Shown in pieces: positions 504-33,774 of a stretch of 38,417 nt of DNA (positions are counted from its first letter, which is position 1; every line of letters starts with the position of its first letter). Both the position numbers and the translations under genes were made by a program. Source of the stretch: Spirochaetaceae bacterium (GTDB lineage Bacteria > Spirochaetota > Spirochaetia > DSM-27196 > SLAA01); the NCBI GenBank assembly GCA_003552985.1, contig PUPD01000100.1, forward strand, positions 1 through 38,417, given 5' to 3'. Below the pieces are notes generated by a model that had not been told where the DNA came from, searched no databases, and was given only the letters and a program-made list of their open reading frames with translations.

Positions 504-878
504 ATGCAGGACCCGGAGCATACGCTTGAGATAACCGAGAACGAGACGCTACTGTTCAGCTCGAGAGCGGGGTGGTTGAAGCCGCTCTACGAGCTCGAAC
601 AGTGGCTCCACAACTCAGGTTATCGGCTCGAAGATCTCGCGGTGGAGGACAAGGTGGTCGGCCGGGCGGCGGCGCTGCTGCTGTGTCGCCTGGGGTTGAG
701 GCGTCTGAGGACCGCGGTGCTCAGCCGGCGAGCGGTGCCGGTGCTGGCGGCGGCCGGCGTGCGTTATCACGCCGAGCTCGAGGTTGCCGAGATCGGATGC
801 GAGACCGAGCAGGTACTCGCCGATTGCGACGATCACGAGGCCGCGTATCGTGAGATCATGCGGCGTTTGGGAAAGTAG
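504..878 (+). CDS. DUF1893 family protein
   Basis: A 124-residue soluble protein with no signal peptide or membrane segment. The core 'VEDKVVGRAAALLL' (about residues 48-61), followed by a segment with Leu/Arg and 'AVPVLAAAGV', matches the DUF1893 family, small alpha/beta proteins related to the cytidine deaminase-like fold and of unknown function. The family usually carries a Cys near the C-terminus; here the only Cys after the core is in 'EIGCETEQ' (near residue 98). It starts 77 bases after the ugpE-like gene and could be in the same transcript. A purine-rich stretch (gagagg) lies just before the ATG. No specific role can be assigned. Confidence 0.7.
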   Translation: MQDPEHTLEITENETLLFSSRAGWLKPLYELEQWLHNSGYRLEDLAVEDKVVGRAAALLLCRLGLRRLRTAVLSRRAVPVLAAAGVRYHAELEVAEIGCETEQVLADCDDHEAAYREIMRRLGK

Positions 879-890
879 TGGTGGCCGCCG

Positions 891-909
891 GTGAGCAAAA
901 CCGGCTCAC
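891..909. terminator. hairpin between convergent genes
   Basis: GTGAGC (891-896) pairs perfectly with GCTCAC (904-909) around a 7-base A-rich loop. It sits at the convergent junction of the DUF1893 gene and the CZB chemoreceptor gene and overlaps the receptor's stop codon. There is no clear T tract, so terminator function is only suggested by position. Confidence 0.25.
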
Positions 910-2660
910 GACGGTTCCGCTTGCACTCCTCGTATGATCTCGTTGATCGTTTCACGGTACTCAATCAGCTGCTTCCAGATCGTATCTAGGGCCTGGTACT
1001 CCTGTTCACGGAGCTCGCGGTTCTGGTCGTGATACGCATCGATCAGACGATTATAGGTCTCGTGGAAGCGATCGTGGAGCTCCGTGAGCGCGGCGAGGGA
1101 GCCGTCATCGGCGCGCTCCTTGGCCATCACCATGATCAGATTACCGAGTGGACAGTCGCTTCCGCGGTTCTTCTCGGGCAGGTTGGCAACCGGCACGCGT
1201 CCGTCAAGCAACAGCCGGGCACCCATCAGCCGTTTCTTGTGGTCGAGAATGACGTGCCGCAGTACCGAGACATAGGTCTCGTGGCTCGTGCCGTCGCCGG
1301 CTTCAAGCCGAAAGTACTTCAACTCTGTCGCCAGCTGCGCCATGTGGCGGTTGCTCGCGGTGCTCATCTCGGCGATGCGCTGCTGGGACGAGCGAATCTC
1401 ATGCGCCGCCGAGCTGAATGCCTCTATGTGCGAAACTGTCTGGTGTGAGACTTCGCGAATCGTGCTCAACGCCTCGTTGACATTCTGAACACCGCGCGTC
1501 ATCTCTTCGGAGCCTGCGCTGATCTCCTGCGATATCCGTCGCAGCGAGCCGACCGCTTGAAGCATCTGATCGGTCCCTGTTGCTACTTCGTCGGTGCTTG
1601 CAGCGATCTCGCCGAATGCGGATACGAAGGTTTCCACCTCGGACTTGATCTGGGTGAATACGCCCCCGGTCTGTACCCCGGCCTCGTGTGCCTGCCGAAT
1701 CCGCTCAACGAATTCCTTGAGCGACTTTGTGATCTGCTGGGTATGGGCGGTTGTGGACTCCGACAGGCTACGGATCTCCTCGGCGACAACAGCAAACCCG
1801 CGGCCGTACTCTCCGGCGTGAGCGGCCTCAATCGCTGCGTTCATCGCCAGCAGATTGGTCTGCGCCGCCACATTGTTGATCACCGAAATCATAGTGAAGA
1901 GCTCGTTCAAACCGGAGGAAACCTCTTCCATGACCGCGGTCATGGCGCGAACGTGCTCACCTCCACGCTCGGTGGTGGTCATCAGAGTTCCGGTCGCTTC
2001 ACGTCGTTCAGTGGCAATCCGGGCTACGCTTGAGATTGAGGCCGACATCTCTTCGACCGCGCTCGAGGTCTGGTCCACAGCCGCCGCATGGGTCGCGATC
2101 TGGTCGCCGAGGTTGGAGATGCCGGCAGTCAGCTGTTCGATCCCGGACGAGCTCTCTTCGATCTGTGTATTCAGCCTGCTCATCTGTTCATCGGTCTGGG
2201 TGGCCCGGTTGCTGATCGTGGCTGTCTGCTGAAGCGAACGGTCGGTCTCTCGGCGGAACTGTTCACTGATCTCCAGGGTTGCGTCGATCAGCTCTTTCAT
2301 CCCCAGCAGAGTGATCTGCATTCCGGCAACCAACCCTTGGTCGAATTGATGTGCCAAGTGAGCGAGCTCCGGCAGGGTCGAGCGTAAACCGGCGCGGGTG
2401 GTAAGGTCTCCGTCGGCGACTGCGTCAATCGTGCGGGCGAGTCGGCGCACCGGGAGTGTCACAGTGCGGGTGAGAAGGAACCGGGTTGCGAGTATCAGCA
2501 CGATGAGCGCCACCGTTCCAACCGCTGCAAACAGAACGCCTGCCTCCTGCGGCAGGTGATAATCGTCGGACAGTCCGAGCAGCATCCCCGCCGCCGCAGC
2601 GGCGACCAGTATAGCCACAAGCGTGACCCGATTCCCGAGCGAAAGCTTTGCGATAGCCAT
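906..2660 (-). CDS. methyl-accepting chemotaxis protein with C-terminal CZB zinc-binding domain
   Basis: A 584-residue chemoreceptor. Two membrane helices (about 12-30 and 40-63) are separated by only about ten residues, so there is essentially no periplasmic ligand domain. A HAMP domain (about 64-115) and the methyl-accepting coiled coil follow; the conserved hairpin tip [22 protein letters not shown] lies at about 262-283. Residues about 467-540 form a chemoreceptor zinc-binding (CZB) domain with the expected ligands His474, Cys503 (in CPLG), His529 and His533 (HDRFH). Sensing is therefore probably cytoplasmic, by zinc or zinc-thiolate redox (inference from the CZB family). GGAG lies about 14 bases before the ATG. 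The gene is divergent from the NikR-like/zinc transporter operon and shares its control region. Confidence 0.92.
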   Translation of the reverse strand: MAIAKLSLGNRVTLVAILVAAAAAGMLLGLSDDYHLPQEAGVLFAAVGTVALIVLILATRFLLTRTVTLPVRRLARTIDAVADGDLTTRAGLRSTLPELAHLAHQFDQGLVAGMQITLLGMKELIDATLEISEQFRRETDRSLQQTATISNRATQTDEQMSRLNTQIEESSSGIEQLTAGISNLGDQIATHAAAVDQTSSAVEEMSASISSVARIATERREATGTLMTTTERGGEHVRAMTAVMEEVSSGLNELFTMISVINNVAAQTNLLAMNAAIEAAHAGEYGRGFAVVAEEIRSLSESTTAHTQQITKSLKEFVERIRQAHEAGVQTGGVFTQIKSEVETFVSAFGEIAASTDEVATGTDQMLQAVGSLRRISQEISAGSEEMTRGVQNVNEALSTIREVSHQTVSHIEAFSSAAHEIRSSQQRIAEMSTASNRHMAQLATELKYFRLEAGDGTSHETYVSVLRHVILDHKKRLMGARLLLDGRVPVANLPEKNRGSDCPLGNLIMVMAKERADDGSLAALTELHDRFHETYNRLIDAYHDQNRELREQEYQALDTIWKQLIEYRETINEIIRGVQAEPS

Positions 2661-2701
2661 TCTGTTTATTGCTCCAATCGAAGGTTTGGTTGTATTCGGG
2701 T

Positions 2702-2713
2702 GGTATCATACCA
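2702..2713 (-). promoter_or_regulatory. extended -10 promoter of the CZB chemoreceptor gene, inside a small palindrome
   Basis: On the minus strand TGG-TATGAT (2713-2705) is an extended -10 element (TGn plus 5 of 6 TATAAT bases). It gives a leader of about 35 bases that carries the GGAG ribosome site. The same bases form an 11-bp perfect palindrome GGTATCATACC (2702-2712). There is no good -35, which fits an extended -10 promoter. Not tested experimentally. Confidence 0.45.
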
Positions 2714-2721
2714 TTATCCCG

Positions 2722-2749
2722 GTAGCATGAGATATTAAATTCGTGCTAC
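2722..2749. promoter_or_regulatory. candidate operator of the NikR-like repressor: GTAGCA-N16-TGCTAC
   Basis: GTAGCA (2722-2727) and TGCTAC (2744-2749) are perfect inverted repeats separated by exactly 16 bases; two of the next three inner positions also pair. The classical E. coli NikR operator is GTATGA-N16-TCATAC, so spacing and general shape match while the half-site differs. The right arm overlaps an extended -10 element for the plus strand (TGC-TACTAT, 2744-2752), and the left arm lies just upstream of the divergent chemoreceptor promoter. A bound repressor would cover the operon promoter and could affect both genes. Confidence 0.6.
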
Positions 2750-2752
2750 TAT
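2744..2752 (+). promoter_or_regulatory. extended -10 promoter of the nikR-like/znu operon
   Basis: TGC-TACTAT fits the extended -10 pattern (4 of 6 bases of TATAAT) and would start transcription near 2759, about 29 bases before the ATG at 2788. It overlaps the right half-site of the inverted repeat at 2722-2749, as expected for repression by steric block. Confidence 0.4.
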
Positions 2753-2787
2753 GCCGCAGGGTGCCCCTATAGGCGCAGGTGAACCAT

Positions 2788-3216
2788 ATGAGTGAGATAG
2801 TACGTTTCGGGGTTTCGATGGAAAAACCGCTGGTCGAGATGCTGGACCGTCTGACAGTCGCCGAGGGCTACAGCAACCGTTCCGAGACCATCCGCTCGCT
2901 TGTCCGTCAGGAGGTTATCCGCAGCGGTCGGGAGAAAGACAGGCAACAGGTTGCGGGGGTGGTTACTCTGGTCTACCGCTACGGGACCAGGCTTCGACGG
3001 GTCTCCACCACCGGATACCGATCGCTCCGCGTCGCCGCCAACATGCAGCTGCATTTGGATGACGAGATCTGTTTGAACCTCTTGATCCTCACCGGCGACG
3101 GCAGCGAGCTGCACGCCTGGGCGAGTAATCTCATCGGACAACGCGGGGTGGTCGGCAAACTGAGTATCACCGCAACGGAGGACCTGTACCGTGAGCTCTC
3201 CAGCGTTTCTCACTGA
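2788..3216 (+). CDS. NikR-family metal-responsive repressor with altered metal site
   Basis: A 142-residue regulator: N-terminal ribbon-helix-helix (about 1-45, with GYSNRSETIRSLVR) and a C-terminal ACT-like metal-binding domain (about 55-140, with GQRGVVGKLSI). The ATG at 2788 is chosen because AGGTGA lies five bases before it; a GTG nine bases upstream is possible. Aligned with E. coli NikR ligands His76, His87, His89 and Cys95, this protein has Gly, Gln, His and Cys, and the poly-His loop is lost. Square-planar nickel binding as in NikR is therefore unlikely. The gene overlaps the start of the zinc-type ABC ATPase by 26 bases, so it probably represses a zinc or manganese uptake operon (inference from context). 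Confidence 0.85.
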   Translation: MSEIVRFGVSMEKPLVEMLDRLTVAEGYSNRSETIRSLVRQEVIRSGREKDRQQVAGVVTLVYRYGTRLRRVSTTGYRSLRVAANMQLHLDDEICLNLLILTGDGSELHAWASNLIGQRGVVGKLSITATEDLYRELSSVSH

Positions 3217-3904
3217 TCTGACGGTCACTCCGCACAACGAGGACGCCGTCACGCTGGATGGGGTAAGCGCCGGTTATGGTGAAGGGCCGGTGCTGACCGA
3301 TCTCTCGCTGCGCATACACTGCGGCAAGCTGGTGGGCTTGCTTGGGCCTAACGGCGCGGGCAAGACAACCGTGCTGCGGATCGCGATGGGATTGCTGGTG
3401 CCGACAGCGGGTCAAGTTGCGGTGCTCGGACGACGGCTCGATAGCGCGACCGACCGCAGTTGGGTGAGGTTGCGCATCGGGTACGTTCCGCAAGTGCAAG
3501 CTCCGCCGGCATTGCCGATCACGGTGGCCGATTCGGTGCTGCTCGGTCGCTGGGGATGTTCGTTCCGGTTCCTGCGGCGGCCATCGCGCGAAGACCGCGC
3601 GCTGGTACGCGAGACGCTCGGACTGGTTGGGATGGGCGAGCTGGCCGCGCGTGACCTCGCTGCATTGTCCGGTGGACAGCGCCAGCGCGCGGCACTTGCC
3701 CGGGCGTTGGCGCGCCGACCGCGGCTGCTGCTGATGGACGAGCCCACGACATATCTGGATCAGGAGGCCCAGCGCGATTTGGTGCAGCTGATCGAGCGCC
3801 TGCATGCCCAGCTGAACATAACTACCGTGGTGGTGACGCATGGCCGCGAAGCGGGCTGGAGGTTCGACCGAGAGATACACCTCACCAACGGCGGTGCCGC
3901 ATGA
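3191..3904 (+). CDS. znuC: metal ABC transporter ATPase, ZnuC-like
   Basis: A 237-residue ATP-binding subunit of a zinc/manganese-type importer. Visible motifs are Walker A GPNGAGKT (about 52-59), signature LSGGQRQR, Walker B LLLMDEP and the switch-loop His in VVVTHGR. The GTG start is supported by GGAGGA seven bases upstream, although it lies inside the end of the repressor gene in another frame. Its stop overlaps the start of the permease gene by four bases (ATGA), so it is translationally coupled. The substrate is inferred from the neighbouring permease and cluster A-I binding protein. Confidence 0.85.
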   Translation: MSSPAFLTDLTVTPHNEDAVTLDGVSAGYGEGPVLTDLSLRIHCGKLVGLLGPNGAGKTTVLRIAMGLLVPTAGQVAVLGRRLDSATDRSWVRLRIGYVPQVQAPPALPITVADSVLLGRWGCSFRFLRRPSREDRALVRETLGLVGMGELAARDLAALSGGQRQRAALARALARRPRLLLMDEPTTYLDQEAQRDLVQLIERLHAQLNITTVVVTHGREAGWRFDREIHLTNGGAA

Positions 3905-4710
3905 GCGCGTTGATCGATATGCTCGCGATTCCGGTCATCCGCAACGCGTTCATCGGAATGCTGGTAGCCGGCGCCACGCTATCCACCCTGGGCGTAGTGA
4001 TCGTGTCGCTCCATCTCATGGCACTGCGGTTCACGTTGATGCACGTGGGGCTCCTGGGAGCGGCGGCCGGCATGAGTCTGGGGTTTTCGGCGACCGCCGG
4101 CGCTTTTGTGCTGGTGCCGGTAGCTTCGGTGATGATGGGAATGCTCGGCCAGCGGTTTCGGATCTCGGCGAGCTCTATGACGGGGTTCTTTATGACCGGG
4201 TCGCTTGCCGGCGCGTTTCTGCTGTTGGCGCGAGCCGGGGTGCCGGCGATGGACGTGTTCGGGATCTTCGCCGGAAACATCCTGATGCTGCGCCGGCTCG
4301 ACGTCGTTCTGGTCGTGGTGCTGGGGCTTGCAGTGGTGCTCGCGTTCGTAATTGGGTACCGCGAGATTCAGGCGGTGCTGCTTGACCGTGACCTGGCGCT
4401 GTCACTGGGTGTGCCGGTGCAGGCGGTCGTTGCAGGCCTGTTTCTCTTGCTGGGAGCGGCCGTTGCGCTGGCGCTCCGTTTGGTCGGTGCCCTGCTCGTG
4501 GATGCGATCATCCTGCTCCCCGGCATGGCGGCGCTGCGATTTGCGCGCGGCTTCGGCTCGGCGCTGGTACTCTCGTCGGTGTTCGGCGTGATCGCCTGCG
4601 CCGGCGGGTTTTTGGTCGCCGTGCGTTTCAATCTGCCGATCGGCGCGAGCTCGGCGGCCGTCTCGAGCGCCATTCTCGGCCTCTCGGCCGTGGTGACGCG
4701 CGGGAGATGA
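3901..4710 (+). CDS. znuB: metal ABC transporter permease, ZnuB-like
   Basis: A 269-residue hydrophobic protein with about eight membrane segments, typical in length for the ZnuB/TroC family of zinc, manganese or iron permeases. The family region 'GALLVDAIILLPGMAALRFARGF' (about 197-219) is the familiar 'vGaLLv.A.LilPaatA' stretch. It lies between the ATPase and binding-protein genes, overlapping the former by four bases. Metal specificity cannot be read from the permease. Confidence 0.85.
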   Translation: MSALIDMLAIPVIRNAFIGMLVAGATLSTLGVVIVSLHLMALRFTLMHVGLLGAAAGMSLGFSATAGAFVLVPVASVMMGMLGQRFRISASSMTGFFMTGSLAGAFLLLARAGVPAMDVFGIFAGNILMLRRLDVVLVVVLGLAVVLAFVIGYREIQAVLLDRDLALSLGVPVQAVVAGLFLLLGAAVALALRLVGALLVDAIILLPGMAALRFARGFGSALVLSSVFGVIACAGGFLVAVRFNLPIGASSAAVSSAILGLSAVVTRGR

Positions 4711-4742
4711 TCCGATCTTTCAGCGAAGTGAGGAGGAGAGGT

Positions 4743-5558
4743 ATGACGACGAGTAACGGTCTCACATCGGGTTATGATACCGGGTGTTCCGGAGTCCGGA
4801 GGCGGTACGGCCGATATTTGCTGGCGACACTGATGGTTGTGCTCCTGGGCATGGGGCTCGCGACAGAGGAAGCGGCCGCCGGCGAGAACACCCGAGTTGT
4901 CGCGGCCACCGCATGGGTAGGTGCGATGGCGGAAGCAGCCGGTGTCGAGGAAGTGCGCGTGTTGGCACCGGCGGAGTTGCGCCATCCTCCGGAGTATGAC
5001 TTTGCGCCCCGTGACGTCGGGTTTGCGGCTGAGGCCGATCTGCTGATCTGGGCCGGATACGAGGGTTTCATGGAGAACCTCTTCGAGGCGGCCAACATTT
5101 CCGAGGACCGTATTCTTCGCATCAGGACAAGCAATGTGCCGCCGCTTATGGCCGAAGCGGTAGAAACGATCGCCGCGGAGCTGGGTACCGAAGATCAGTT
5201 TCTGCAATGGAAGCGCAAGCTCGATCAGCTTGCCGAGGAGCTTCTGAGCGCGGCCGACGCCGCCGGCGTTGCGGATACTCCGGTCGCGGCTCACTTCCAC
5301 CAACGCGGGTTCGCCGAATGGCTCGGTTTCGAGGTGGTGGCCGAGTTCGGCCCTGCCGAGATGACACCAGGGGAGCTGGCTTCGATTCTGGCTGCGGAGC
5401 CGGAGTTGATCATAGACAACTGGCACATTCCGCACGGACAGCCGCTGCGTGGTGATGGGCGCCGGTACACGATGCTGATCAACTTTCCGGGCAGCCACGG
5501 CACCTCGAGCCTCTTCGACGTCTTACGCTACAACGCTGAGCAGCTCGAGCTGTTCTGA
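4743..5558 (+). CDS. metal-binding periplasmic protein of the zinc ABC transporter, reduced ZnuA-like
   Basis: A 271-residue cluster A-I solute-binding protein. An in-frame ATG at 4707 overlaps the permease stop, but the ATG at 4743 follows a strong ribosome site (GGAGGAGAGGT) and is preferred. Signal peptide: RRR around 19-21, hydrophobic stretch about 25-41, likely cut near AAA-GEN. Candidate metal ligands are His81 (in RHPPEYD, at the usual DPHTYE position), His184 or His186 (AHFHQRGF), and the His/Asp residues in 'DNWHIPHG'. The second canonical His motif (DPHxW) is missing and that region is shortened, so the metal site differs from ZnuA/TroA. Last gene of the operon. Confidence 0.75.
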   Translation: MTTSNGLTSGYDTGCSGVRRRYGRYLLATLMVVLLGMGLATEEAAAGENTRVVAATAWVGAMAEAAGVEEVRVLAPAELRHPPEYDFAPRDVGFAAEADLLIWAGYEGFMENLFEAANISEDRILRIRTSNVPPLMAEAVETIAAELGTEDQFLQWKRKLDQLAEELLSAADAAGVADTPVAAHFHQRGFAEWLGFEVVAEFGPAEMTPGELASILAAEPELIIDNWHIPHGQPLRGDGRRYTMLINFPGSHGTSSLFDVLRYNAEQLELF

Positions 5559-14747: not shown

Positions 14748-14804
14748 AACCCTTTACCGGCACCAGATGCATGTGTGCGGGTCCCGGTCGACCGGGTGTT
14801 GTTC

Positions 14805-14833
14805 TTGCAAAGTTGGCCCGGTGGCATTATTCT
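14805..14833 (+). promoter_or_regulatory. candidate promoter of the flavodiiron protein gene
   Basis: TTGCAA (14805-14810), a 17-base spacer and TATTCT (14828-14833), 4 of 6 matches in each hexamer, 23 bases before the ATG at 14857. Confidence 0.4.
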
Positions 14834-14856
14834 CAACCCCAAGTGAGGAAACCGCT

Positions 14857-16101
14857 ATGAAAACTACACAAGTTACCGACGGCGTGTACCGACTGTCGGC
14901 CAACGTGCATGACATCTTATTCGAGGGCTTTTGGCCGATCCCGAACGGGGTCGCGCTGAACTCTTATGTCGTAAAAGGCGAGAAGTGTGCCATTATCGAC
15001 GGGGTCTGCAACTGGGACGGCGTCCCGGAGACTCTCTTTGCGCAGCTGGATCAGATGCAGGTCAGGCTCGAGGACATCGACTACGTCGTAATCAATCACA
15101 TGGAACCCGACCATTCCGGCTGGCTTGAGGCCTTCCGTACGCTACGACCGCAGTTCACCGTATATTGCAGCGAACGCGCGAAGCCGTTGCTCGAGGCGTT
15201 CTACGGTATTGTGGACAACGTGCAGACGGTCAAATCGGGCGATACGCTCGATCTCGGCAATGGCCGGGTTTTGGCGTTCGAGGATATCCCGAACGTGCAT
15301 TGGCCGGAGACGATGGCAACCTACGACACCAAGAGTAAGACGCTCTTCCCCTGCGACGCATTCGGTTCGTTCGGCGCCGTGTCGGACGATGCTCCGTACG
15401 ACGACACGCTTCAGGAAGAGCATATCGAGTTTTTTGAGCGCGAAATGGAGCGCTACTACGCCAACATCGTAACCGCCTATTCGGCCCCAACTAAAAAGGC
15501 AATAGAAAAGGTCGATGCCCTGGATGTGCGCATCATTGCTCCGGGGCACGGCATTGTCTGGCGGCGGGATCCCCACCGCGTCATCCGCGACTACAAACGG
15601 TTGTCAAGCTACGCTGAAGGGCCGGCCAGACCGGAAGTCGCCGTGATCTGGGGTAGCATGTACGGCATGACCGAGCAGATGGTCAGACCGGTGGTCGACG
15701 CCATTGAGGCCGAGGGCGTCCCAACCCACGTGCATCGGGTGCCGGAGAGCGGTCTGAGTTTTGTGCTCGAGTCCGTGCTGAAGAGCTCGGGAGTGGTGCT
15801 CGGTACGCCCACCTACGAGTACAAGATGTTTCCTCCCATGGCGGCCGTGGTCGACGAGCTCGGCAAGAAGAGGATACAGAATCGTATCTGTCTTCGCTTC
15901 GGGTCGTACGGCTGGTCCGGTGGTGCACAGCGCGAGCTGGATGAGATCAATGGGCGGCTCAAGATGAACTGGCGGTTTATCGAGCCGGTGGAGTTCAAAG
16001 GACGTCCGCGCGAGACAGATATCGAGCTGGCGAAGGAGCGGGCGCGTGAGCTTGCCCGCGCGGTAAAACAGTGGGTCTTGGCCGAATCTAGGGTACACTG
16101 A
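14857..16101 (+). CDS. fprA: flavodiiron protein (A-type flavoprotein, oxygen/NO reductase)
   Basis: A 414-residue soluble enzyme that reduces oxygen to water, or nitric oxide to nitrous oxide. The metallo-beta-lactamase-like half (1-250) keeps the diiron ligands His81, Glu83, Asp85 (HMEPDH), His148 (VHWPE), Asp167 (FPCDAFG) and His231 (APGHG). The flavodoxin half (about 258-405) begins VAVIWGSMYGMTEQM, the FMN phosphate loop. The ATG at 14857 follows GAGGAAA; longer in-frame starts upstream are unlikely. There is no fused rubredoxin or NADH oxidase domain, so electrons must come from a separate partner. The gene stops five bases before truC and faces the hemerythrin chemoreceptor gene. Confidence 0.93.
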   Translation: MKTTQVTDGVYRLSANVHDILFEGFWPIPNGVALNSYVVKGEKCAIIDGVCNWDGVPETLFAQLDQMQVRLEDIDYVVINHMEPDHSGWLEAFRTLRPQFTVYCSERAKPLLEAFYGIVDNVQTVKSGDTLDLGNGRVLAFEDIPNVHWPETMATYDTKSKTLFPCDAFGSFGAVSDDAPYDDTLQEEHIEFFEREMERYYANIVTAYSAPTKKAIEKVDALDVRIIAPGHGIVWRRDPHRVIRDYKRLSSYAEGPARPEVAVIWGSMYGMTEQMVRPVVDAIEAEGVPTHVHRVPESGLSFVLESVLKSSGVVLGTPTYEYKMFPPMAAVVDELGKKRIQNRICLRFGSYGWSGGAQRELDEINGRLKMNWRFIEPVEFKGRPRETDIELAKERARELARAVKQWVLAESRVH

Positions 16102-16844: not shown

Positions 16845-16876
16845 GCTGCGCTATCTGTTTGCTGCGCTATCTGTTT
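16845..16876. repeat. perfect 16-bp tandem duplication at the 3' end of the hemerythrin chemoreceptor gene
   Basis: The unit GCTGCGCTATCTGTTT occurs twice head to tail (16845-16860 and 16861-16876). The coding strand of the chemoreceptor reads through the first-met copy as KQTDSA and enters the second in another frame. That frame produces the stop codon (TAG at 16853-16851). Confidence 0.9.
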
Positions 16877-18737
16877 GCTTTGCTTCCTGCGACCCGGTCC
16901 CGGCTTTGCTTGTGGTGTCGGTCTTCTCAAAGAACTCATCCACCGGCTTGTTCGCAAAGAAGCTTCGATAGCGCTTGTCGCACTGCTTGATGTGCTCGAG
17001 GAGCCAGCTACGCAGCAGTTGCAGGGTGTCGAGCACCACGGTGGTACTGCCGTGCTCATACTCCTCGCGGAGCTTGCCGACACGCTGCACGAGCTCGGCG
17101 TGTTGCTCTTTGTGGTGCTCGCATTCCGGGTAGCCGAAATGCTCGAATGCCCGTTCCTCGCACCCGAAATGATAGCCGGCATACTCGGTCAGGCGATCGA
17201 GAATAGGCCCCACCGTAAGCCGGCCGCGTTCGTTCTTTACCGCATCGTAGAGCTCGTTGAGCATCCTGATGATGTTCTGGTGATGCGTGTTGAAGGTACG
17301 CACCGATACCGACAGATCGTCGGTCCAGGAAACGACTTTGTTCTCGTGTGACCACTGCTCATGGGCCTGGAGCTTATCCACGGTCTTGGAAAGCTGATGG
17401 ATCTGCTCTTCGTTGTGCATCGCCAAACCGGCGGCGCGCTCGAGCGCGGTTCGCAAGGTCTCAGCGGCTGCGCTAATGCCTGTCGACTTCTCTTCGATCT
17501 CGGCGGTGAATCGCTGTAAACCGGCAAACCCTTCACGCGTTTGTGATGCCTCGCGGTCGATCGCGTCCGAGCGCCCTTGGATTTCCTGTATCGAGTTGTT
17601 GAGCACTTCGAGCGCCGAGAGTGTCTGTGAGCTACCCTCACGTTGCTCTACCATAGCGTTCTTAATGTGGCACTGCAGGTCGTTGGCCGAATGGATGCCG
17701 CTCAGGACCCGCTCGAACGCCTTCTCGGTGCGGTCAAACGAGCGTACCATTTCGTCGATGCGATTCTTAATCTCTTTGAGCTCGCGCGCAGTCTGTCCGG
17801 CCTGACCCGAAGAGCGTTGCGCCAACTCGCGGATCTCGTCGGCGACTACCGCAAACCCCGCCCCGGCTGACCCGGCGTGCGCTGCCTCAATCGCAGCGTT
17901 CATCGCCAGCAAGTTGGTCTGCGCAGCGATATGCAGGATCACCGAGTTTGCCTCGAGCAGGGTTTTCGACTGTTCGGCGATCTGTTTGATCTCGCCTGTC
18001 ACCGTTGCAAGCTCCTGCTTGCCTTGTTCCGCGGTGGAGACAAGCCCGTTGAACTCCTGTCCGAGATGCTCGGTGTGGTCGGTGACCGAGGCGATACTCT
18101 GAATCATCTGCTCGACCGCGGCGGACGACTCGCTCGTGGCCGAGGTTTGCTCGGAAATCTCGTGATTGAGATTGCCGATGTTGGTACTGATCCTTGCGAG
18201 TGCTTCGCCCGAGTCGTCGAGGCCGCTGCGCTGGCTGCGGATGTTATCTTCGGTGTCTCGGATACTGCTCGCAATCCGGTTCAACTCTCCGGTAGTCCTG
18301 AACAGTATTTCACGCAGCTCAGTCATGCCTGTGCGTGCGGCGGAGGTGCCGCCCTTTACGCGGCCGATAATCGTGCCGAGCTTCTCAACGAACTGGTCCA
18401 CCGCGGCGGCAACATCTCCGAGCGCCTGGTGATGCGAAGGGTCGAACACCGCTGCGAACTCGCGCTCTCCTTCCTCGATCGCCGTTACCGCGGAGGCCAG
18501 GCGGGCGAATGAGCGTCGACTGCCCCGAAGACGCAGATAGACTGCAAGAGTAGCCGCAATTGCAACGATTGCTCCGGCGAGCAGCGCCGCAGTGGCGAGC
18601 GGCAGCGCGTCCGCAGACGGGATGCCGGCAGCCGAGGCATAGGTGAACACAACCCCGCTGATCAAAACCGCACCGATAGCCAGAATTGCGAGGAGCGGAT
18701 ACACCGCGCGCTGTTGAAGATTACGTGTAGAGCTCAT
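16851..18737 (-). CDS. methyl-accepting chemotaxis protein with C-terminal bacteriohemerythrin domain
   Basis: About 628 residues from the ATG at 18737; an upstream TTG at 18815 is possible but has no support. Two membrane helices near the N-terminus (about 14-34 and 43-66) with a very short outside loop are followed by a HAMP-like region and the signalling coiled coil with tip [21 protein letters not shown]. Residues about 468-595 are a hemerythrin domain with the expected ligands: His486 (THHQN), His523 and Glu527 (HFGCE), His542 and His546 (HKEQH), His582 and Asp587 (HIKQCD). Like DcrH of Desulfovibrio it should bind oxygen, or NO, at a diiron site and drive aerotaxis. It faces fprA-truC. 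Confidence 0.93.
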
Positions 18738-19018
18738 GACGAGCAATCTTAGCACGGACTGCCGGGATTCGTCGCGGGCTGTGTGGCGGGAAATCGGTAT
18801 CAGAGAGTTCGTCAATGAGAAGACAGTCTGGGTCGGCCCAAAGTTGGCGCATGCTTGCGTGACGGTAGTAATCGTGCGATAATTATCGTACCGTGGCGCA
18901 AATAGGGGATGTCACGGGACCGGGCAGGCGTCCCATCCGGTCTGTACGGCAGAGGCACGTGTCGGCCGGATGCCAAGGATTGTGGTCAGCTTGCTGATAC
19001 TGGTTCACGGGGGTAGTA
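18738..19018. other. divergent intergenic region with inverted repeats
   Basis: A 281-base gap between the hemerythrin chemoreceptor (minus) and an unrecognised gene (plus). It holds the inverted repeat at 18855-18901 described separately. The part from 18738 to 18840 and the part from 18905 to 19000 show no gene or convincing promoter. Confidence 0.5.
18855..18901. promoter_or_regulatory. 47-bp imperfect inverted repeat around a GATAATTATC palindrome and candidate promoter
   Basis: Thirteen-base arms at 18855-18867 (TTGCGTGACGGTA) and 18889-18901 (TACCGTGGCGCAA) pair at 11 of 13 positions. The 21 bases between them contain most of the perfect 12-bp palindrome CGATAATTATCG (18877-18888). TTGCGT (18855) plus a 17-base spacer plus GATAAT (18878-18883) also makes a plausible plus-strand promoter for the gene at 19019. 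A protein binding the arms would cover that promoter. The binding protein is unknown. Confidence 0.5.
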
Positions 19019-32641: not shown

Positions 32642-32863
32642 ATGAGCGATGCGGTTCTCATCGTGGATGCCTCGGTTTCCATGCGTTACATGATCTCGAT
32701 GATCCTGAAGGGCGATGGTTATCAGGCGATCGAAGCCGAGAACGGCGAGCAGGCACTGGAGCAGTTGACTGACGGGGTGAATGCGGTGATTACTGACCAC
32801 AACATGCCGGTGATGAACGGCGCCGAGTTGACCCGCTCAACTCGCGCCGGTAACGTGAGGTGA
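32642..32863 (+). pseudogene. cheY: truncated cheY
   Basis: Seventy-three residues match the first three fifths of CheY: VLIVDASVSMRYMISMIL, then ITDHNMPVMNGAEL with the phosphorylation Asp. The strand-4 Thr/Ser and strand-5 Lys region of the usual 120 residues is missing, because the frame stops after 'STRAGNVR'. The acidic pair of the metal pocket (normally VDD) is VDA here, so one Mg ligand is lost. The truncation runs directly into the cheA remnant (four-base overlap), as if a deletion joined the two genes. Not expected to be a functional phosphorelay protein. Confidence 0.75.
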
Positions 32864-33774
32864 CCACTGCGAACGCGGAAGGCGAGGGCGAGGCGGCGGA
32901 GCGTACCTACCGGATCGTGCTGCGGCCGCCGGAGGAAACGTTTCGCATCAGCGGGAGTCCGCTGCTGCTAATCAAGGAGCTTCAAGATCTCGGTCAGACG
33001 CCGGGCATAGGGTTTGCAGACGATATTCCTCCGCTTTCGGTAATAGACCCTGAAGCCTGCTACCTGCATTGTGATATTCTGCTAACCACAGGCGGGCCCG
33101 AGGATTCCGTACGCGATGTGTTTCTGTTTGTCGACGGCAAGGGCGATATCAGTGTGCTCGACGAGGGCGGGCTGTTGGATACCGACATCAGCTACAAGCG
33201 CCTCGGAGAGATCCTGGTCGCCCGCGGTGAAATCAAGCCTGAAGAGCTCGAACGGGTAGTCGGCTCCAAGGACAATCTCGGTGATGTCCTGGTGAAGACG
33301 GGTTATATCACTCGAGAACAGGTGCTGTCGGAGCTGAGCGAGCAGAGCTACGTAAGGAAAATGCGCGAGTCGTGCAGTCAGGCCGAAGGGAGCTTAGCTA
33401 TCAAGGTGCAGACCGCTAAGCTCGACGCACTTGTCAATTCGGTGGGCGAGTTCGTATCGCTGCACGCCAATATCCTGATGGTTGCCGACCAGAAAGGGGA
33501 CCAGGACTTCAAGGCTGCGGCTGAGCAGATGGAGGGTCTGATTCGGCAGGTGCGGGACCTCTCGATCGAGCTGCATATGGTGCCGATCGATCTGTTGTTC
33601 AGCGGGTTCCGTCGTCTGGTGCGAGACCCCCGAGGAACGGCGTGCCGCGGGATCGGGATGGATGTGGCAAAGCGCAATATCGAGAATCTCGGCGGCGCGG
33701 ACGGCGGCGACCGAATCAACGACGTTCGCGGCGAGATTGCGCCGTATCTGGATCTCCGGCTTCCGGCTGCCTAA
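32860..33774 (+). pseudogene. cheA: cheA remnant with internal deletions
   Basis: A 304-residue open frame pieced from CheA. It lacks the N-terminal HPt domain with the phosphorylated His. Present are a P2-like linker region (RTYRIVLRPPEETFRISGSP, LHCDILLTTGGPEDSVRDVFLF) and the dimerisation domain (TAKLDALVNSVGEFVSLHANI, then ELHMVPIDLLFSGFRRLVRD). The sequence then jumps to the G-box piece 'GIGMDVAKRNIENLGG', missing the N box, and again to 'VRGEIAPYLDLR', a CheW-domain piece, before stopping. Most of the ATPase domain is gone, so kinase activity is impossible. The frame stayed open across the joints, which may reflect chance or recent deletion. Confidence 0.8.

Follow-up and report, generated by a model that had tools for sequence, protein, structure and literature searches.

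The CZB domain is a zinc-binding site. Chemoreceptors that carry it read zinc occupancy or redox state (PMC8262984, PMC13370339), and its motif is C-x-(L/F)-G-x-W-(Y/L), the ligand cysteine of DgcZ being C52 (PMC8262984). The published operators of NikR repressors are 27-28 bp long, with the form GTAACAC-N13/14-GTGTTAC predicted for D. psychrophila (PMC545781). In this study, we analysed a locus of a Spirochaetaceae bacterium from salty sediments (assembly GCA_003552985.1, contig PUPD01000100.1; the whole stretch of 38,417 nucleotides is called the window below) in which the gene of a chemoreceptor with a CZB-type tail lies back to back with an operon of a NikR-like repressor and an ATP-binding cassette (ABC) metal importer. 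The locus is a new variant of known parts and a concrete candidate for a place at which a single repressor might serve both metal homeostasis and chemotaxis. We give about an even chance to the reading that it is an autoregulated NikR-type metal-import operon, with the divergent receptor as maybe a second target in this species.

Results

An earlier note, made from the letters of this DNA alone, had described the same gene arrangement as a zinc sensing and uptake locus read from one short control region. The arrangement was confirmed and its gene calls hold. The control region is the 118 bp between the receptor gene and the divergent nikR operon (plus strand, 2779-5558), and it has one probable repressor site, a palindrome at 2722-2749 that the note had missed. 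The features are as follows.

906-2660, minus strand: chemoreceptor (methyl-accepting chemotaxis protein, MCP), 584 amino acids
2705-2713, minus strand: putative extended -10 of the receptor gene, TGgTATGAT, from the intergenic alignment and a scan
2722-2749, palindrome, no strand assigned: predicted NikR-type operator of 28 bp, GTAGCATGAGATATTAAATTCGTGCTAC, from the footprint of 34 nikR upstream regions and genome scans
2744-2752, plus strand: putative extended -10 of nikR, TGcTACTAT, from the sequence and the upstream alignment, which the operator overlaps with its right half
2779-3216, plus strand: NikR-like repressor gene, with its start probably at the ATG at 2788 as in the orthologues; from Pfam, NCBIfam and PDB matches, the ligand alignment and a tree
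3191-3904, plus strand: ABC ATPase of the metal importer (Pfam ABC_tran; top NCBIfam match AztA, below cut-off)
3901-4710, plus strand: ABC-3 permease of the ZnuB/TroC type (Pfam ABC-3, E=7.5e-32; top NCBIfam match AztB, below cut-off)
4707-5558, plus strand: divergent metal-binding protein of the TroA/ZnuA fold, from an alignment of 20 sequences, a borderline Pfam ZnuA match and the predicted fold

Because consecutive genes, from nikR to that of the binding protein, overlap or adjoin each other, all four are probably read as one transcript. No riboswitch was found in a search of the window.

The operator was derived from the regions up to 260 bp 5' of nikR in the order and in other families of its class. 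The footprint of these 34 regions has the consensus GTARCACG-N12-CGTGYTAC, and 28 of them score 14-16 out of 16, a level reached by 0-3 of 200 randomised controls. In the window the palindrome is the sole site of at least 14/16, and the genome of 3.9 Mb has exactly one match to the consensus (reversed control, 0). Since the background of a one-mismatch scan was as high as the signal, we relied on zero-mismatch consensus matches for the conclusions. The geometry agrees with that of published NikR operators, in the orientation of the D. psychrophila type (PMC545781), and the palindrome is probably a NikR operator. An exact pattern, GTAGCA-N16-TGCTAC, was dropped as too specific and replaced by the footprint consensus. 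A consensus match in G001 (C308:9741) and a one-mismatch match in G024 (C29, between ribosomal-protein/ssb-like genes) were set aside as likely due to chance (G, C and L numbers denote the genomes, contigs and loci compared).

Six nikR genes had no such site, and some of their genomes have the operator before another importer instead. It precedes FecBCD-type importers in G008, in G400 and beside the second nikR of G003 (L124:1873, L167:5685 and L015:1747, respectively), as well as an energy-coupling factor (ECF) importer (ATPase/CbiQ) in G406 (L173:10255), where NikR has all four canonical ligands. In G005, an ABC importer has a site of 15/16 in front of its ATPase. The distribution of the operator links the motif to the regulator and to metal import, and it favours nickel or cobalt, since FecBCD-type and ECF (CbiQ) importers of relatives have this operator before them.

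The repressor has both NikR domains (Pfam NikR_C, E=5e-8; RHH_1, E=2e-5), and its PDB matches are NikR without exception, with E down to 1e-17. Its top NCBIfam model, the nickel-responsive NikR, scored 97.0 bits and was thus below the cut-off of 105. Among the nickel ligands (E. coli numbering), His89 and Cys95 are kept and His76 and His87 are gone. Across the clade, Gln at position 87 and His89 are each present in 31 of 31 members and Cys95 in most, the sister genus and G267/G369 having lost it in addition. A tree separated this Gln-type clade of 31 sequences from twelve canonical NikRs with support of 100/99, some of the branches being long. The repressor is a NikR-family member with an altered canonical nickel site. 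As a separate observation, the neighbours of a Gln-type nikR in G003 (L015:1793-5055) and in G400 (L167:2177-6263) are a FecBCD-type importer and a conserved protein of unknown function that has no Pfam match.

These ligand losses, with His76 and His87 gone throughout the clade and Cys95 gone too in some members, could mean that the NikR-like protein has stopped sensing metal by itself and represses locally in response to some other signal, the receptor being its second target. The persistence of nikR and the receptor in G003, in which the importer has gone, would fit. However, the retention of His89 in all members and of Cys95 in most, together with the invariant Gln87, suggests a site that was remodelled and is not dead, and the genes remain linked to metal importers. 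We regard a loss of metal sensing as very unlikely.

Like ZnuABC, the importer has an ABC-3 permease and an ATPase (Pfam). Its binding protein reached 28.5 bits against Pfam ZnuA (cut-off 29) and was likewise borderline in 20 of 20 relatives; its predicted fold resembles MtsA, PsaA and ZnuA, with a best E of 7e-11 in Foldseek. In the alignment of 20, the candidate ligands His93, Asp237 and His240 are invariant and His196 is nearly so. Judged by what we take to be the TroA/ZnuA ligand positions (three His), Tyr-Glu stands where the second His would be, and a His-rich loop is absent across the 20 relatives. Two canonical ZnuA-family proteins are encoded elsewhere in the same genome; one of them has a His-rich stretch of great length and an adjoining ATPase. 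The importer beside nikR is not the obvious zinc importer, because its binding protein is divergent and a canonical His-rich ZnuA is encoded separately. A DUF1893/TM1506 gene (504-878, plus strand) lies beyond the receptor here and between nikR and the ATPase, inside the operon, in many relatives, which makes a link with this metal system possible.

In the model of the earlier note, the NikR-like repressor, a Znu-type importer and the CZB receptor would all respond to zinc. The zinc site expected of a CZB domain, the ZnuA/TroA fold of the binding protein and AztA and AztB as the top NCBIfam matches agree with that model, and a NikR clade that has lost two nickel ligands could have changed its metal. 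Yet the repressor is a NikR relative that has lost half the nickel site, the binding protein has neither the second His nor the His-rich loop, and the separate His-rich ZnuA speaks against a zinc label as well. The operator is also common to FecBCD and ECF importers in relatives, and to our knowledge neither importer type is known for zinc. The zinc label for the importer and the repressor is thus weak, and we consider a locus responding throughout to zinc improbable.

The receptor has MCPsignal and HAMP domains (Pfam, E=7e-31 and 3e-8). As claimed in the earlier note, it is without a periplasmic sensor domain, since only a short loop separates its two hydrophobic stretches (about residues 12-30 and 39-60), the two transmembrane helices. 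The residues that it named as a zinc site were also found: His474, Cys503, His529 and His533 stand in the C-terminal tail in the order H..C..HxxxH, so that the core of three His and one Cys is present, and they are unchanged across 8 orthologues of 37-88% identity. The ligand spacings are 29, 26 and 4 residues, compared to 30, 27 and 4 in DgcZ at what we presume to be its zinc-ligand His positions. In the tail motif CPLGNLI, the Cys, Leu and Gly agree with the CZB motif, and Leu replaces its Trp. Pfam CZB (PF13682) stayed under its gathering score of 29.4 bits, the full protein scoring 15.4 bits (E=0.024) and the tail, scanned by itself, 20.2 bits (E=8e-4). A Pfam search of the own genome gave no CZB match at E<=1e-3, which we attribute to sensitivity because CZB matched 8 of 8 orthologous tails scanned alone and was the sole family to do so. 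The structure model of the tail is a confident helical bundle for which Foldseek returned generic helical bundles only, with no CZB entry (e.g. DgcZ CZB 3T9O) in the top 50, and a PDB sequence search with the tail gave no CZB match. We call the tail a divergent CZB domain.

Discussion

In the preferred reading, the NikR-family repressor would autoregulate the TroA/ZnuA-type importer through the one operator at 2722-2749, which lies over the putative -10 of nikR. With ample intracellular metal the repressor would bind and the operon would be off, as the footprint common to about 30 relatives suggests. The metal would most likely be nickel or cobalt, though the nickel site of the clade has been remodelled. 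The receptor is fixed beside the operon in the genus. Only in this species and in G002, the relative closest to it, would the putative -35 of the receptor at the usual spacing lie inside the operator, so that metal sufficiency would also lower receptor synthesis. Under metal scarcity, uptake would rise and the receptor would be installed, its cytosolic tail reading zinc occupancy or redox. Because CZB receptors read these signals, the receptor, even if co-expressed, would be expected to report cytosolic zinc or redox and not necessarily the metal imported at the locus.

The pairing proved not unique to this genome when spirochaete genomes were compared, with the receptor and nikR back to back in 5 of 5 genomes of the genus. 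Four of these are metagenome-assembled genomes (MAGs) from sediment samples, named Spirochaetaceae or Spirochaetales and presumably, by their isolate names, of soda-lake origin. In the order, nikR and the importer binding protein were each found in 26 of 46 genomes, and the nikR-importer operon in about half. Outside the genus, none of the loci examined in the order paired nikR with a CZB receptor, and among 393 genomes sampled from the phylum no other locus held both nikR and the receptor tail.

Several observations count against the preferred reading. On the receptor side, serA on the other flank is as conserved in the genus as the receptor, so the synteny of receptor and nikR may be passive, and adjacency alone is weak evidence. 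The promoter boxes of both units are predictions. The receptor box TGGTAYKAT is kept in 4 of 5 congeners in the intergenic alignment; no consistent sigma-28 site for the receptor was found among the five species. The operator lies 60-61 bp from the receptor start in two species, compared to 111-145 bp in G001, G004 and G003, where it is 50-85 bp farther from the receptor than in this species. In those three, the operator is too distant for one to expect that it simply occludes the receptor promoter. Co-regulation is therefore not conserved along with the pair, and joint control is plausible in this species and its closest relative alone. On the metal side, two nickel ligands are missing from the repressor, the closest NCBIfam names of the ATPase and permease are those of zinc AztA/AztB, below cut-off, and no NiFe hydrogenase was found in the own genus. 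Sister-genus genomes do have NiFe hydrogenase genes. In two of them, 10-13 kb separate nikR from a large-subunit gene (G006:C16:15755-17014 and G008:C24:14579-15838).

It is possible, at somewhat less than even odds, that importer and receptor are passive neighbours, the importer being controlled by NikR and the receptor being a conserved syntenic neighbour that has a promoter of its own and shares neither regulation nor metal with the importer. The confinement of the pairing to one genus, the equally conserved serA flank, an operator that follows nikR and not the receptor in 3 of 5 species, and the closest receptor relatives (G018, G021, G023, G362, G383 and G371), which have no adjoining nikR, all fit this explanation, and regarding the receptor it is nearly as likely as the preferred reading. 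Against it stand the operator over the putative receptor -35 in two species, the fact that the genome has no second such operator, and the history of G003. There the importer has gone, but nikR and the receptor are intact. A scar (L012:8776-9028) between nikR and serA retains 52 residues from the start of the ATPase and the final 33 of the binding protein, and no homologue of the binding protein was found elsewhere in that genome. The nikR operator of G003 is degenerate (14/16), and the loss of its importer rests on one MAG. We find this retention of repressor and receptor more telling than adjacency.

A stronger version of the preferred reading is that the single genome-wide operator lets the remodelled Gln-type NikR directly control both importer and receptor, and that the repressor of G003 survived the loss of the importer and now acts for the receptor. 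We think this rather unlikely; if true, metal scarcity would raise uptake and install the taxis receptor together. A functional coupling of receptor and importer is unproven, as is the proposal of the earlier note that swimming and uptake answer to the same metal signal: the operator overlaps the putative receptor promoter in only 2 of 5 species.

Without this comparison, the zinc reading would have entered the annotation. In addition, this NikR clade, in which the metal site has changed and the operator is conserved among many spirochaetes, could show how the metal specificity of NikR shifts.

Other genes of the window are recorded here for completeness. A second chemoreceptor (16851-18815, minus strand) carries hemerythrin as its C-terminal domain (Pfam, E=3e-12), so that the window holds two receptors with metal-site tails, one CZB-type and one hemerythrin, and a flavodiiron-type protein gene (14767-16101) lies near the latter. 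A CheA-like open reading frame (32860-33774, plus strand) stops soon after the dimerisation domain (Pfam H-kinase_dim) and is possibly truncated or frameshifted.

In our limited search of the literature, we found no divergent operator that serves both a CZB receptor and a NikR-type importer; the parts can be compared with known systems one by one. With the NikRs of E. coli, H. pylori and delta-proteobacteria (PMC545781), the repressor shares the RHH and NikR_C domains, a 28-bp palindromic operator and importer operons as targets, and the GTAACAC...GTGTTAC orientation predicted for D. psychrophila is also seen here. Unlike canonical NikR, it lacks His76, has Gln for His87 and a shortened loop, falls in a separate clade and has a TroA/ZnuA-type importer as its target. 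That importer has the ABC-3 permease, ATPase and TroA/ZnuA-fold binding protein of ZnuABC, AztABC and TroABC, but its binding protein is borderline in Pfam and without the second His, and its control is NikR-like instead of by Zur, Fur or MntR. The receptor shares with H. pylori TlpD, Salmonella McpA and DgcZ (PMC8262984, PMC13370339) the C-terminal three His and one Cys, a near-identical spacing and C-x-L-G, and differs in the missing motif Trp, the two-helix membrane anchor and the sub-threshold Pfam score. As for the joining of metal and taxis, the Zur-VerA-AerB system of Vibrio cholerae also places a chemoreceptor made in metal starvation in the regulon of a metal repressor, but indirectly, via an activator, with zinc and Zur, an oxygen/energy taxis receptor and no shared divergent operator (PMC8248653). 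In Pseudomonas putida, CsoR-CheA likewise links metal homeostasis with chemotaxis through a metal repressor, but the link is protein contact with CheA and the metal is copper (PMC11978298).

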